Positions 7,943-20,301 of a stretch of DNA of 56,515 bases are shown here, piece by piece. Each line of letters opens with the position of its first letter. The stretch's first letter is position 1. Origin of the DNA: an uncultured Oscillospiraceae bacterium (lineage in GTDB: Bacteria; Bacillota; Clostridia; Oscillospirales; Oscillospiraceae); assembly GCA_947628315.1 (NCBI GenBank), contig CANQZJ010000006.1, positions 1-56,515 on the forward strand, given 5' to 3'. Under the pieces are notes generated by a model. It had not been told where the DNA came from, ran no database searches, and saw only the letters and a list, made by a program, of their open reading frames with translations. The translations under genes were made by a program, and so were the position numbers.

Positions 7943-8187
7943 TCAGACACCTCCGATTCATCCTGTACTTCCTCAGCCTTCACCGCGGTCCCGGGGACGT
8001 GCTGGTACAGGTCGCGCTTGCGTGTGCGCCCGTTCCTGGCGCAATTCCAGCAGCAGTCTTGGTCGCGGTCAGCCTTCTCGTTCACACAGCCGGCGCAGCC
8101 TTCCATAGGGCTCCCGCACACCCAGCAGAACCGGGCACCGCTCATGTGCGGGTACGAGCCGCATACCGGGCACGCCTCGCGGCTCAT
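7939..8187 (-). CDS. zinc-ribbon protein (82 aa)
   Basis: Cysteine pairs in CPVCGSYP, FCWVCG, CAGC and CCWNCARNGR suggest two zinc-binding knuckles in the first 55 residues, followed by an acidic tail. The start overlaps the stop of the preceding gene by four bases. It is one of several zinc-ribbon proteins in the left arm. The function is unknown; nucleic acid binding is the usual role of such folds. Confidence 0.65.
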   Translation of the reverse strand: MSREACPVCGSYPHMSGARFCWVCGSPMEGCAGCVNEKADRDQDCCWNCARNGRTRKRDLYQHVPGTAVKAEEVQDESEVSE

Positions 8188-8672
8188 TGTTCAACCTCGA
8201 ACTGGCTGGCGCCGGACTCCACGGACATCAGGCTGTTCATCCATGTGATACAGTGGCTGGCCCGTTCAAACTCCTTGGTCCTAACCTCGCCTTCCCTGTT
8301 GTCGACGCCGATGTATCTTCCGGTCTCCGGGTCGTAGGCCCACATCAGGCCAAGAGGCAGCCGGCTGTTGATGACGCCAAGGAGCTTGTTGTAGCTCGTT
8401 CGCATCGGGTGGTACATCAGCTTCCGGGGGCACCATACAGGCACGGTCTTTATGGCGGGCGTGTCAGACGCCCCCACCGTCCAGCAGATGCCGACGCCGT
8501 TCTTGTTCTTCGATACGTAGTGCCCGCGAAGCCCGAGCGCCTCCCGGGCGCCAACGTGGGTACAGTAGCAGTACCCACGCGGACGCTCAAGGTGCGCGTT
8601 GTTCTTCGTCTTGCTGGACCGTTCCGGCACATTCACACAGTCGCAGGTCACGCAGCGTATATCGTCCATCAC
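8184..8672 (-). CDS. hypothetical protein with Cys-rich N-terminus (162 aa)
   Basis: The first 40 residues carry CVTCDC and CYCTHVG, a likely metal site. The rest is a mixed fold (VWCPRKLMYHPMRTSYNK, then LMWAYDPETGRYIGVDN). It overlaps both neighbours by four bases. I recognise no family. Confidence 0.6.
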   Translation of the reverse strand: MMDDIRCVTCDCVNVPERSSKTKNNAHLERPRGYCYCTHVGAREALGLRGHYVSKNKNGVGICWTVGASDTPAIKTVPVWCPRKLMYHPMRTSYNKLLGVINSRLPLGLMWAYDPETGRYIGVDNREGEVRTKEFERASHCITWMNSLMSVESGASQFEVEQ

Positions 8673-16640: not shown

Positions 16641-16904
16641 TTACAGCATAGCGATTGCCAGCTCCAGGGCGCTCATGCTCTGCTGGATGCCCTGGACGGC
16701 CGGCGAGGTCATCTGCTCGTACTCAGCACGGGTATATTCCCGCTGCTCGTACACCCACTGCGTAAACTCCTCTCCGGTCATGGTGTCGGGCTCCGTCTCC
16801 TGCCGGATGTTCCGCCGCTCGTACACGGTGGTCTGACTGGAGACGGTGTCCACCTCCGGGGGGCGTTCCTCCCGGCTGTCATGCACAATATGCCAGTCTA
16901 TCAT
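16641..16904 (-). CDS. hypothetical tail-associated protein (87 aa)
   Basis: Starting MIDWHIVHDSREERPPEVDT, with the later segment EEFTQWVYEQREYTRAEYEQ and a hydrophobic end (SALELAIAML). GGAAAGG precedes the ATG, which lies inside the end of the reverse transcriptase gene. Its place before XkdX matches XkdW in PBSX, but I see no clear similarity. It does not look like the DGR accessory protein Avd, which is a longer four-helix bundle. Confidence 0.6.
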   Translation of the reverse strand: MIDWHIVHDSREERPPEVDTVSSQTTVYERRNIRQETEPDTMTGEEFTQWVYEQREYTRAEYEQMTSPAVQGIQQSMSALELAIAML

Positions 16905-18048
16905 TTTCCATCCTTTCCCGCTTCGCAAGCACTGAGATGCGGCGCCTGCAATAGCGCATTGACACGTTCGGCTTGATGTACTTCTGGAAATACTTGTATG
17001 TGTTCGTGTGGTCGAACCACCCCTTGTAGGCAAGCATCGTCGCGGCGTCGATACGCCGGCAGCGACGTAGGCGGGCCATGCGGAGCGCCTTGGCCCTGGC
17101 ACGCTCCAGTATACCCTTCCTCATCGTTATCCTGTTCCTGTGCACGACGTAGCCCAGGGCGTTTATCGGTCGCCCTCGGTCGCGCTTTTTATCCGGCTTT
17201 CGCCTGGGCCCGGCGTAGTACCGGGACGGATCATCGCGGCGCGGTGGCCTTTGGAACGGCTTCGGCTCGTACTCATAGCGGAACACCTGCCAGCCCTCGT
17301 TGAGGTGCATGTGCAGGCGTTCGCTCAGGAACTCCTCGACGGCATCTACCATCGCGTGCAGCTCCTTCTTGTTCGTGGAGAACAGGTACAGGTTGTCGAC
17401 GAACCGCAGGTAATGGTCCGGCTTCAACTGCTGGACGATGTAGTAGTCCAGCGACGATATGTAGAACGTGGCCAGCCAGGGGCTGGTGTAGAATCCTTTC
17501 GGCAGGCCGGGGCCGGAGTTGTCGATGACCCTGAACAGCACAGACAGGAACCGCTTATCGCGGATGGTTTTTGACAGCATCTTCTTCAGCAGCTCAAGGT
17601 CGATGCTGTCGTAGTTCTTCTTCACATCCAGCTCTGCGACGTAGAACTTCTTCCCGTGGTACGAGTCTGCCCACCGTTTCAGCGCTCGGGCAGCGAACAG
17701 CGCACCGCGCCCTTTCAGGACGCCGCACGCATAACGGTATGTCCTCGGGATGATGATCTTCTTGAGCTGTCGCACCAGCATGTGATGAACGATCTGCTCG
17801 CAGTCCCAATTCGGCTTCTCAATGGTCCGCTCTTTCTTGTGGCTCCCCTCCCGCCGGGTCTTACGTGGATGGTATGGGGGCTTCCACACAGGCAGATTCT
17901 TCTTGATCTCAGCGGCCTTCGCTGGCTTATTCGCCAGCGCCCGCTTCACCGCCGACCGCTTCTTCTTCCGCTTGGCGGCCTCCTCGATGGACGCTTCTAT
18001 CTCCTCGTTCTCGGTCATGGCCTCGTACAGGCCGTTGAAACTTTTCAA
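16879..18048 (-). CDS. DGR-type reverse transcriptase (389 aa)
   Basis: This RNA-directed DNA polymerase should copy the template repeat RNA with errors at adenines and pass the cDNA to the fibre gene. Motif A is LDVKKNYDSID (Asp141), motif B GLPKGFYTSPWLATFYISSLD region (181-201), motif C RFVDN (215-219), and a motif E-like segment is ALGYVVHRNRITMR. The TTG start at 18048 has AGGAAG six bases upstream; no ATG competes. Odd points: FVDN instead of YxDD, and SP where DGR enzymes usually have SQ in motif B. The first 80 residues are a very basic extension. No maturase or endonuclease domain is present. Confidence 0.9.
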   Translation of the reverse strand: MKSFNGLYEAMTENEEIEASIEEAAKRKKKRSAVKRALANKPAKAAEIKKNLPVWKPPYHPRKTRREGSHKKERTIEKPNWDCEQIVHHMLVRQLKKIIIPRTYRYACGVLKGRGALFAARALKRWADSYHGKKFYVAELDVKKNYDSIDLELLKKMLSKTIRDKRFLSVLFRVIDNSGPGLPKGFYTSPWLATFYISSLDYYIVQQLKPDHYLRFVDNLYLFSTNKKELHAMVDAVEEFLSERLHMHLNEGWQVFRYEYEPKPFQRPPRRDDPSRYYAGPRRKPDKKRDRGRPINALGYVVHRNRITMRKGILERARAKALRMARLRRCRRIDAATMLAYKGWFDHTNTYKYFQKYIKPNVSMRYCRRRISVLAKRERMENDRLAYCA

Positions 18049-18197: not shown

Positions 18198-18309
18198 AAG
18201 ATGGCGAGGCCCCGATGTTCCAGTTCGCCCTGGACGCCGCATTGTTGCAGTTCAGGTAGCGGGCGCCGCATTGGGAGCCGTTGTTGCAGTTGCCCCCGGC
18301 GATAGCCAC
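18198..18309 (-). repeat. DGR template repeat (TR)
   Basis: The 112-bp segment matches VR at +255 bases with no gap. Of 23 minus-strand adenines in TR, 17 differ in VR; all 89 other positions agree. Read in the VR frame, the adenines fall in 14 codons, eight of them AAC or AAT (Asn), which can vary at two positions without giving a stop. It lies between the fibre gene and the RT gene, in the same orientation. It should be transcribed as a non-coding RNA template. Confidence 0.97.
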
Positions 18310-18407
18310 CCAGGCACAACGGGCCACAGACGTGAGCCGTATTCCCTACAAAACTCAGAGATTTGCGTTCAGCTTCTTTCGCGCTGCCGGCGGTCACGAA
18401 GGCTTCT

Positions 18408-18427
18408 CCGGGGGATGAATCCCCCGG
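18408..18427 (-). other. hairpin downstream of VR
   Basis: CCGGGGGAT and ATCCCCCGG form a stem of up to nine pairs with a very short loop, 25 bases after the end of VR and just past the fibre stop codon. Hairpins or cruciforms in this position assist mutagenic homing in studied DGRs. It lacks a T run, so a terminator role is less likely. Confidence 0.7.
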
Positions 18428-18432
18428 ACCCC

Positions 18433-20301
18433 CTAAATAGAGGGACCTTCACAAGAAGGCGAGGCCCCGAAGATCCAGTGCGCCCCGGACGCCGCAGCGT
18501 TGCAGAGCAGGGAGCGGGCGCCGCAAGGGGAGCCGCTGTCGCAGGCGCCCCCGGCGAGAGCCACGGCGGTGATGCCCTGGTTCCACCAGAAGAAGTCGCC
18601 GTCGTTCGTGGAGTCGTTGCCATCGAAGGGTCCGATGGGCACGCGGCCCAGCGGCGAGTTGCAGGTGTTGTGCTGCCAGCCGGAGCCGGATGCTGCCAGC
18701 CCCTCCAGGCTCTTGCTGATCGGGGTGTACCCCACGCCCGTCAGGTTGTACCCGCCGCCCTCCGGGGTCATCTTGGCCAGGTACACGCCGCCGCGCTGAA
18801 TCAGGCCCACGAGGCGGTCCCAGCGGCCGCCCCAAAAGCTCTCGACGTGGAACACCTTGACCTGCTGGGTCGTGGTGTTGTAGCCGAAGAACTGGCCCAT
18901 CTTCATCAGGGTGCCAGTCTGGAGGTGGCCGTAGTGCTGCTCCGCGTTGTTGACATAGCCGCTCGTCTGGCCCTGGCCGAAGGCGTTCTGGCTGTGGTCA
19001 TTCTTGGAGATGAGTGTGCACAGGTCGGCGATCAGCTCATTCAGGGCCCAGGAACGGATGTTCCAGAGTGCGCCGTTCTTCTTGGCAGCGTCGATCTCAG
19101 CCTGCGCCGCGATGCTGTACTGCGGGTACTGCCCGGCAATAGACCGCAGGCGGCCCTCAGTGTCCAGGCAACCCTTGAAACACGGGGCGTAGGTCACGCG
19201 GGCGATCTTGCCGTCGGTTCGGGTGTGGGCGTAGGCTTTGTAGCTGTCATCGTACTGATCCTCACAGAACACCGTGTACTCGTAATCGCCTTCCTCCCAG
19301 CGTTTTACCCAGACCAACGGGAAGGCGGCCATGGCGTTCATCGTGCTGGTCAGATCGGACACAGCGGAGTCCGCCGCCGTCTCGCCCAGCTTCTTCGTGT
19401 AGTCGTTCGGGTCGAGCCTGTACGCCTCAGTGCCGTCCAAGTTCAACATGCACGGGTAGTTGTCGCGCACGAGCCAGATGTCCTGCCAGCTCCCGTAGTT
19501 GAACGAGCCGCCGGAGAAGTCCATCTTGGCCGGGGTCATGCTCTCGGCGTCGTAGATGTACTCCACGCGGTCGAACGAGTTGGCCTCGGACTTCTTGATG
19601 CGGTAGCCGTACCGCTTGGGGCGCTGGCCGGTCAGCGTAAGCAGAATCTTCTCCGCGGACTCCTTCACCCCGGCCACGTCCGTCTTGACCCCAGCGACAT
19701 CTGTTTTCACACCAGCCACATCGGTCTTGACGGCTCCGACATCCTCCTTCACGCCAGCAACATCGGTCTTGACGGTGCCAACATCTTCCTTTACGCCAGC
19801 CACGTCCTCCTTCACGCCTGCGACATCAGTTTTCACCGTGCCGACATCAGACTTCACATCGGCAACGTCAGTTTTCACGCTGCCAACATCCGTCTTTACC
19901 CCGTCGACATCCTCCTTGATCTGGGTCGCGTCGGTTTTGAGCTGCGCGGTATCGGCAAGAATTTTCTCCGTGTCCTCCTTGACGGGCGCGGTCGCCTCGG
20001 CCGCGGCCTTCTCCGCGTAGGCGTACACGTCCGACTTCTTGCCATGCGGGTCATAGTCTTCCGCTGACATGTCTCCGACGCCCATATCGCCCTTGGCCGC
20101 GACGAGCATCCAGTCCTCGCCCTCGGTCGGGGTCACGCCGATCACGTCCCGCTTGGCAACGTAGCTGCTGCCCTCGTGCTGTACCAGGTCGAGCCGCGTG
20201 TACTGAGTTTCGGGGTCGTAGGGCCCCTTCGGTACGACTGTGACCTTCCCCAGCGGAGTCGAGACCTGACCCTCCAGGTTATTCCTTGCCATTTCCGGCA
20301 T
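18433..20301 (-). CDS. receptor-binding tail fibre diversified by the DGR (622 aa)
   Basis: Residues 1-75 resemble a small carbohydrate-binding module of the phage fibre type (GPYDPETQYTRLDLVQHEGS, then SYVAKRDVIG). Residues 95-215 are a coiled coil of seven-residue repeats (VKTDVAG/VKEDVGT). The C-terminal 400 residues end in a C-type lectin-like fold: FFWWNQGITAVALAGG, CGARSLLCN and HWIFGASP. The variable repeat covers residues 580-616. ATG 20301 has GGAGG nine bases upstream. The protein should sit at the tail tip and bind the host surface; the DGR changes its contact surface. Confidence 0.92.
   Translation of the reverse strand: MPEMARNNLEGQVSTPLGKVTVVPKGPYDPETQYTRLDLVQHEGSSYVAKRDVIGVTPTEGEDWMLVAAKGDMGVGDMSAEDYDPHGKKSDVYAYAEKAAAEATAPVKEDTEKILADTAQLKTDATQIKEDVDGVKTDVGSVKTDVADVKSDVGTVKTDVAGVKEDVAGVKEDVGTVKTDVAGVKEDVGAVKTDVAGVKTDVAGVKTDVAGVKESAEKILLTLTGQRPKRYGYRIKKSEANSFDRVEYIYDAESMTPAKMDFSGGSFNYGSWQDIWLVRDNYPCMLNLDGTEAYRLDPNDYTKKLGETAADSAVSDLTSTMNAMAAFPLVWVKRWEEGDYEYTVFCEDQYDDSYKAYAHTRTDGKIARVTYAPCFKGCLDTEGRLRSIAGQYPQYSIAAQAEIDAAKKNGALWNIRSWALNELIADLCTLISKNDHSQNAFGQGQTSGYVNNAEQHYGHLQTGTLMKMGQFFGYNTTTQQVKVFHVESFWGGRWDRLVGLIQRGGVYLAKMTPEGGGYNLTGVGYTPISKSLEGLAASGSGWQHNTCNSPLGRVPIGPFDGNDSTNDGDFFWWNQGITAVALAGGACDSGSPCGARSLLCNAAASGAHWIFGASPSCEGPSI
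18453..18564 (-). repeat. DGR variable repeat (VR)
   Basis: The last 112 bp of similarity to TR lie inside the fibre gene. Compared with TR the encoded changes include Asn to Ala (twice), Asn to Asp, Ser, Leu, His and Ile, Gln to Pro, Tyr to Ser, Arg to Gly, Ile to Leu and Ile to Phe. One Asn codon is unchanged and one change (Pro) is silent. The 3' end is GC-rich and nearly invariant, as expected for the site where homing begins. Confidence 0.96.

Follow-up and report, generated by a model that had tools for sequence, protein, structure and literature searches.

A prophage diversity-generating retroelement whose reverse transcriptase departs from the canonical motifs of its class

Can a reverse transcriptase (RT) without the two motifs held to be characteristic of diversity-generating retroelements (DGRs) still direct adenine-specific mutation of a phage tail fiber gene? 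The question is raised by a DGR cassette in contig CANQZJ010000006.1 of an uncultured Oscillospiraceae bacterium (assembly GCA_947628315.1), analyzed here over its full 56,515 bases (hereafter, the window), where a template repeat (TR), a fiber gene containing the variable repeat (VR) and an RT gene all lie on the minus strand. The lack of both motifs is the most informative feature of the locus. Overall, we consider this to be a prophage DGR that diversifies the lectin-like tip of the fiber, with an RT from a clade altered at three positions (Lys, Pro and Asn) that still mutates at adenines (probability about 0.9).

The TR (18198..18309) and VR (18453..18564) aligned without a gap over 112 bp. 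Among the 23 TR adenines, 17 were altered in the VR (7 to C, 5 to G and 5 to T), and all 89 non-adenine positions were the same; the chance of 17 random mismatches all falling on the 23 adenines of 112 positions is p = 1.9e-15. These counts reproduced those of an initial annotation made from the letters alone, and its reading of them as the signature of adenine-specific mutagenic homing was borne out. The TR starts 143 bp beyond the VR and is followed, as had also been noted, by an RT gene (RVT_1) at a distance of 149 bp. The annotation had further stated that 14 codons can change. Fourteen TR codons do hold adenine, but the residue can change in 13 of them, as CCA at codon 612 always encodes Pro, and the inability to become stop codons, correctly assigned to eight Asn codons, applies to all 14. 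Thirteen codons of the window VR differ from the TR, 12 with an altered residue, and the theoretical VR repertoire amounts to ~2.5e12 proteins.

The VR covers codons 577-613 at the 3' end of the fiber gene (18433..20292, minus strand, 619 aa; phrog_5302). Structure matches of the fiber model included TaqVP (5vf4), the Treponema variable protein and Mtd, and the C-terminus is predicted to adopt the C-type-lectin/FGE-like fold of DGR variable proteins, in agreement with the earlier placement of the VR in the last part of a C-type lectin-like domain. The fiber stalk contains 21-nt tandem repeats (19639-19911), corresponding to seven-residue protein repeats.

The RT gene (16879..18048, minus strand) encodes 389 aa from a TTG as first start codon (phrog_1423), and its structure was modeled with a pLDDT of 92.4. 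By sequence, the nearest solved chain was the DGR-type reverse transcriptase 8ub7 (E 1.6e-12), which we take to be the RT of phage BPP-1 (bRT) and whose printed residues match those of surveyed locus L065. Alignment with bRT placed motif 4, KGFYTSP (Lys184 to Pro190), at 17479..17499 of the minus strand, with Lys184 (17497-17499) opposite bRT Ile181, which reportedly affects fidelity, and Pro190 (17479-17481) opposite bRT Gln187. Asn219 (17392-17394) replaces the second Asp of YxDD, so that bRT YMDD corresponds to FVDN in the window. The window RT thus departs from both the canonical motif 4, (I/V/L)GxxxSQ, and the canonical YxDD with its two aspartates, an altered active site that is not mentioned in the initial annotation. 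In the DiGReF study (PMC3521204), (I/V/L)GxxxSQ is described as characteristic of DGR RTs and proposed as a fidelity determinant through its SQ motif, the last two residues vary in 15 of 155 RTs (SP among the variants), and both catalytic aspartates are 100% conserved. The open-licence literature searched gave no match for YMDN together with DGR or for Oscillibacter together with DGR and prophage, and neither YADN nor YVDN with DGR occurred among the matches listed.

The distribution of these residues was surveyed in the window and 123 further loci (124 sources in all), drawn from phage-collection matches, from genomes searched for similarity with the window RT, and from viral and genome contigs retrieved with patterns that alignments A1 and A2 had provided. 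An RT open reading frame (ORF) was obtained from 122 (none from L064 and L141) and both motifs from 121 (L063 is cut short); some loci represent one contig fetched twice, and clusters at 95% identity, 89 in total, served as the counting unit. Lys, SP and DN occurred together in 17 clusters (K-SP-DN), and the remainder were SQ-DN (6), CQ-DN (2), SQ-DD (63) and CQ-DD (1), numbers that describe a sample centered on the window, with search patterns that bias motif 4 and not motif 5, rather than population frequencies. No cluster carried the Lys without SP or without DN.

In a tree built without the five motif columns, the 17 K-SP-DN clusters formed one clade (support 0.999) whose sister group was L079/L081 (support 1.0), and the window RT grouped with RTs that have TR/VR pairs, the tree comprising the surveyed RTs and no group II, retron or DRT outgroup. 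Because both sister RTs keep LGxxxSQ yet carry DN, the Asp-to-Asn change most likely came first, with Lys and Pro following later. A second, separate group carries YxDN with an SQ or CQ motif 4 (L020, L021, L022, L040, L043 and L044), and the DD member L024 falls inside it; by our reading of the tree, a minimum of three Asp/Asn changes would be required. RT frames of the K-SP-DN clade are open and under purifying selection. Of the 12 closest RT pairs, one was saturated and the other 11 gave ratios of nonsynonymous to synonymous substitution (dN/dS) of 0.075-0.141, a rough estimate given that dS exceeded 1 in 8 of those 11. In L019 (8635-10056) the TR is readable in the RT frame, and the protein as predicted therefore opens with TR sequence in translation; the true RT start probably lies further downstream.

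Our earlier TR/VR finders selected for adenine bias, and to avoid circularity adenine specificity in relatives was assessed with a base-blind finder, which picked the best direct repeat in the sequence preceding each RT and made no use of base identity. In the K-SP-DN clade a repeat was obtained in 13 of 17 clusters, with changes at 175 of 291 TR adenines and at 6 of 1147 other bases; the corresponding values for DD clusters were 55 of 64, 772 of 1575 and 136 of 5190, the quality of repeat calls differing between the two sets. No base-blind repeat was found for L051, L052, L053 and L058, whose contigs hold 134-445 bases upstream of the RT match. L054, a cluster mate of L053, does have a TR/VR pair by the adenine-biased finder, bringing the K-SP-DN clusters with a pair to 14 of 17. 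All eight clusters with DN and without the Lys had a base-blind repeat. In L021, L022, L040 and L043 every one of 15, 11, 17 and 14 TR/VR mismatches, respectively, was at adenine. No credible TR/VR pair was identified in L020, L039 or L044, the base-blind repeats of L020 and L044 not being adenine-specific. The spectrum of A-to-G/C/T changes did not differ clearly between K-SP-DN and DD RTs (p 0.066). L037 contains two VR-like copies of one TR (8011-8125 and 8259-8342), the second with three non-adenine differences.

Three IMG/VR contigs with three sample ids (L054, L055 and L056; RT motifs KGFYPSP/RYMDN) were compared with one another. Outside the VR these differed by 1, 1 and 2 mismatches in 6559, 4000 and 3968 aligned bases, and the TRs of L055 and L056 had 0 mismatches in a BLAST alignment. 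VR differences lay opposite TR adenines in 11 of 11 cases (L054 and L055), 11 of 11 (L055 and L056) and 13 of 13 (L054 and L056), with the first 7 positions and the part absent from L054 left out. In a relative whose RT is of the same kind as that of the window, the VR has thus recently turned over at adenines only, and the confinement of VR variants to TR-adenine positions that the initial annotation expected in related metagenome contigs is present in these three.

Several observations weigh against our interpretation. Our first finders were selective for adenine bias, as described, and the later one was not; mismatches in the sister loci were at adenine in 14 of 16 (L079) and 7 of 10 (L081) cases; L049, L059, L069 and L075 each have one non-adenine mismatch, and L056 has two, at positions 3 and 6 on the 5' edge of the repeat. 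The window had no near-identical relative among the matches, the closest RT (L045, from the uncultured Dysosmobacter genome G605) being 61% identical, and the active-site changes of the clade are known from alignment only. At present the window prophage is only presumed to be active. This last point would also suit a decaying DGR, in which Lys, Pro and Asn have disabled the RT and the TR/VR signature was left behind by an enzyme that was once active, as would the full conservation of both aspartates in DiGReF and the suggestion in the same study that odd SQ motifs may be very recent inactivations (PMC3521204). Decay is nevertheless very improbable, as all 17 clusters of a diverged clade carry the same three changes, RT frames are open with dN/dS of about 0.1, and L054-L056 vary at adenines in the VR with little change elsewhere.

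Still less probable is that the window TR/VR is worked in trans by another, canonical RT while the FVDN enzyme has a different job. The window assembly is 77% complete and its genome does contain two more RT-like places, L002 (E 9e-6) and L003 (E 1.7e-4), but both match weakly, along less than half of the query, and lie within larger frames (655 and 639 aa). The gene for the FVDN RT, moreover, sits 149 bp from the TR, an RT-beside-TR arrangement kept across the clade, and the one-contig genome G206 has no other match at E 1e-20, a strict limit. The RTs of the K-SP-DN clade appear to be DGR enzymes that have kept their adenine specificity despite a changed catalytic core.

A putative homing signal accompanies the VR. 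Directly past the fiber stop codon lies a hairpin (18407..18428, minus strand) with a perfect 9-bp stem and the loop TTCA, a feature that the initial annotation had not noted. Using a perfect stem of at least 7 bp within 80 nt downstream of the repeat as criterion (~2% in shuffled sequences), a hairpin followed the VR in all 14 K-SP-DN clusters that have one, in all 5 of the other DN clusters and in 29 of 54 DD clusters; downstream of the TR the counts were 5 of 14, 0 of 5 and 2 of 54. The stem started 22-31 nt after the VR in 13 of the 14 K-SP-DN clusters, and at 47 nt, with a 3-nt loop, in L061. BPP-1 homing requires a hairpin, and phage DGR loops fit GRNA, according to PMC3240598; the departure of the window loop from this consensus also counts against our interpretation, and loops of the clade (TTCA, TTTA, GCCA, GCTA, GCAA and others) are mostly not GRNA. 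A fixed difference at the last TR adenine between the initiation of mutagenic homing site and its TR counterpart (IMH/IMH*) was not established, the 14 clade clusters comprising 6 T, 2 C, 2 G and 4 unchanged.

An acidic 87-aa ORF (16641..16904, minus strand) of the DGR-linked family phrog_20201 shares 26 nt with the 3' end of the RT gene. Small ORFs overlapping or abutting the RT 3' end were present in 17 of 17 K-SP-DN, 2 of 8 other DN and 43 of 64 DD clusters, and none of these 62 clusters had Avd within 2.5 kb of the RT by a three-sequence Avd profile, compared with 5 of the 27 clusters without the small ORF. As sole query, the small ORF retrieved 18 viral loci (15 on contigs already known), all with an RT directly upstream, and phrog_20201 matched 4 of 196 genomes, all four adjoining an RT; in the phages collection the small ORF of the window matched one record, the RT-bearing MT835666, and L100 carries a fusion of the small ORF with the RT frame. 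Beyond these, a match in G075 (E 1.8e-5) reaches the contig edge before any RT, no RT was found at a match in G913 (E 0.0037) that the profile did not confirm, and a control search of the 196 genomes with the related family phrog_18126 gave no match and was uninformative. The small ORF was rejected as an Avd homologue, as it has no bAvd match in Pfam or NCBIfam and an isoelectric point of 4.2-4.6 in 11 members versus 9.5-9.7 in three Avd proteins. A search for Avd (PF22296) gave no match in G000, which is 77% complete, in the one-contig genome G206 (99%), in G154 or in the phages Arawn, Epona and LBR48; the same kind of search found it in BPP-1, Lagaffe, Mushu and G575, and G605, the genome of L045, gave a score of 20.7 bits, below the cut-off, near the DD-type RT L151. 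The small ORF could encode a factor of the DGR, or it could be a gene of the tail module that was passed on with the cassette. For DGRs without Avd, Cornuault et al. suggested "another small protein" (PMC5883640), for which this RT-linked ORF offers a concrete candidate.

By analogy with known DGRs, we infer an RNA template, cDNA transfer, receptor binding and activity of this copy. The RT would copy TR RNA with errors at adenines, and the cDNA would replace the VR at the 3' end of the fiber gene, where the hairpin marks the site, making 13 residues of the lectin-like tip variable. More tentatively, and with considerable doubt, the clade can be viewed as gut-phage DGRs performing adenine-specific retrohoming with a rebuilt RT active site. 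The second Asp, the aliphatic residue of motif 4 (BPP-1 Ile181) and the Gln of SQ would then be dispensable, Lys184 and Pro190 would have been fixed after the Asp-to-Asn change, compensating for a changed metal site, and the acidic RT-overlapping small protein would stand in Avd's place.

These findings bear on what makes DGR RTs err at adenines only. The clade provides a natural substitution, with aliphatic residue, Gln and second Asp lost and adenine specificity apparently intact, which would limit models tying specificity to those residues and makes the clade a natural test set for them. Surveys relying on canonical motifs may also undercount DGRs of this kind, since the authors of PMC11054128 blamed a GxxxSP motif for a DGR missed by myDGR.

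The window contig, one of 198 in a genome that is 77% complete, is a siphophage-type prophage, since PHROGs and Pfam identified genes for terminase, portal, major head protein, tape measure, tail, fiber, endolysin and integrase. The integrase gene lies at the far end of the contig (54593-56350; phrog_95, also phrog_125, DNA invertase). The host is a gut-type bacterium belonging to the same family as Oscillibacter. L047 lies on an 82,307-base contig of Oscillibacter sp. MSJ-31, and its TR/VR counts equal those of L019 in G154, a genome of the window's family. Searching for close viral relatives with the window RT matched 7 stretches, none of which was confirmed, and the fiber as query led to 2 viral loci.

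A DGR on a phage fiber is in itself ordinary, as many gut-phage DGRs are described (PMC11792537; PMC8144416); the RT clade is the new part. The Thermus aquaticus DGR variable protein TaqVP (5vf4) was compared with the fiber by fold. The epsilon crAss-like phage crAssE-Sib shares GxxxSP in place of GxxxSQ according to the abstract of PMC11054128 (another passage has this reversed) but is reported there with YxDD, a likeness by description rather than sequence. The BPP-1 DGR (mtd-avd-TR-brt) resembles the window in having the VR at the fiber 3' end, TR then RT on the same strand, a GC-rich hairpin after the VR and a related target fold. In contrast, BPP-1 has a PF22296 Avd, none of which was found in the window genome, a GAAA instead of a TTCA hairpin loop, and an RT 21% identical to that of the window with I/SQ/DD in place of K/SP/DN. 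Faecalibacterium phage FP_Epona and Butyrivibrio phage Arawn differ in their RTs, which are 32-34% identical and carry LGxxxSQ and RYMDD, but share with the window the fiber-TR-RT order, homologous fiber C-termini, a small ORF overlapping the RT end and no Avd found.
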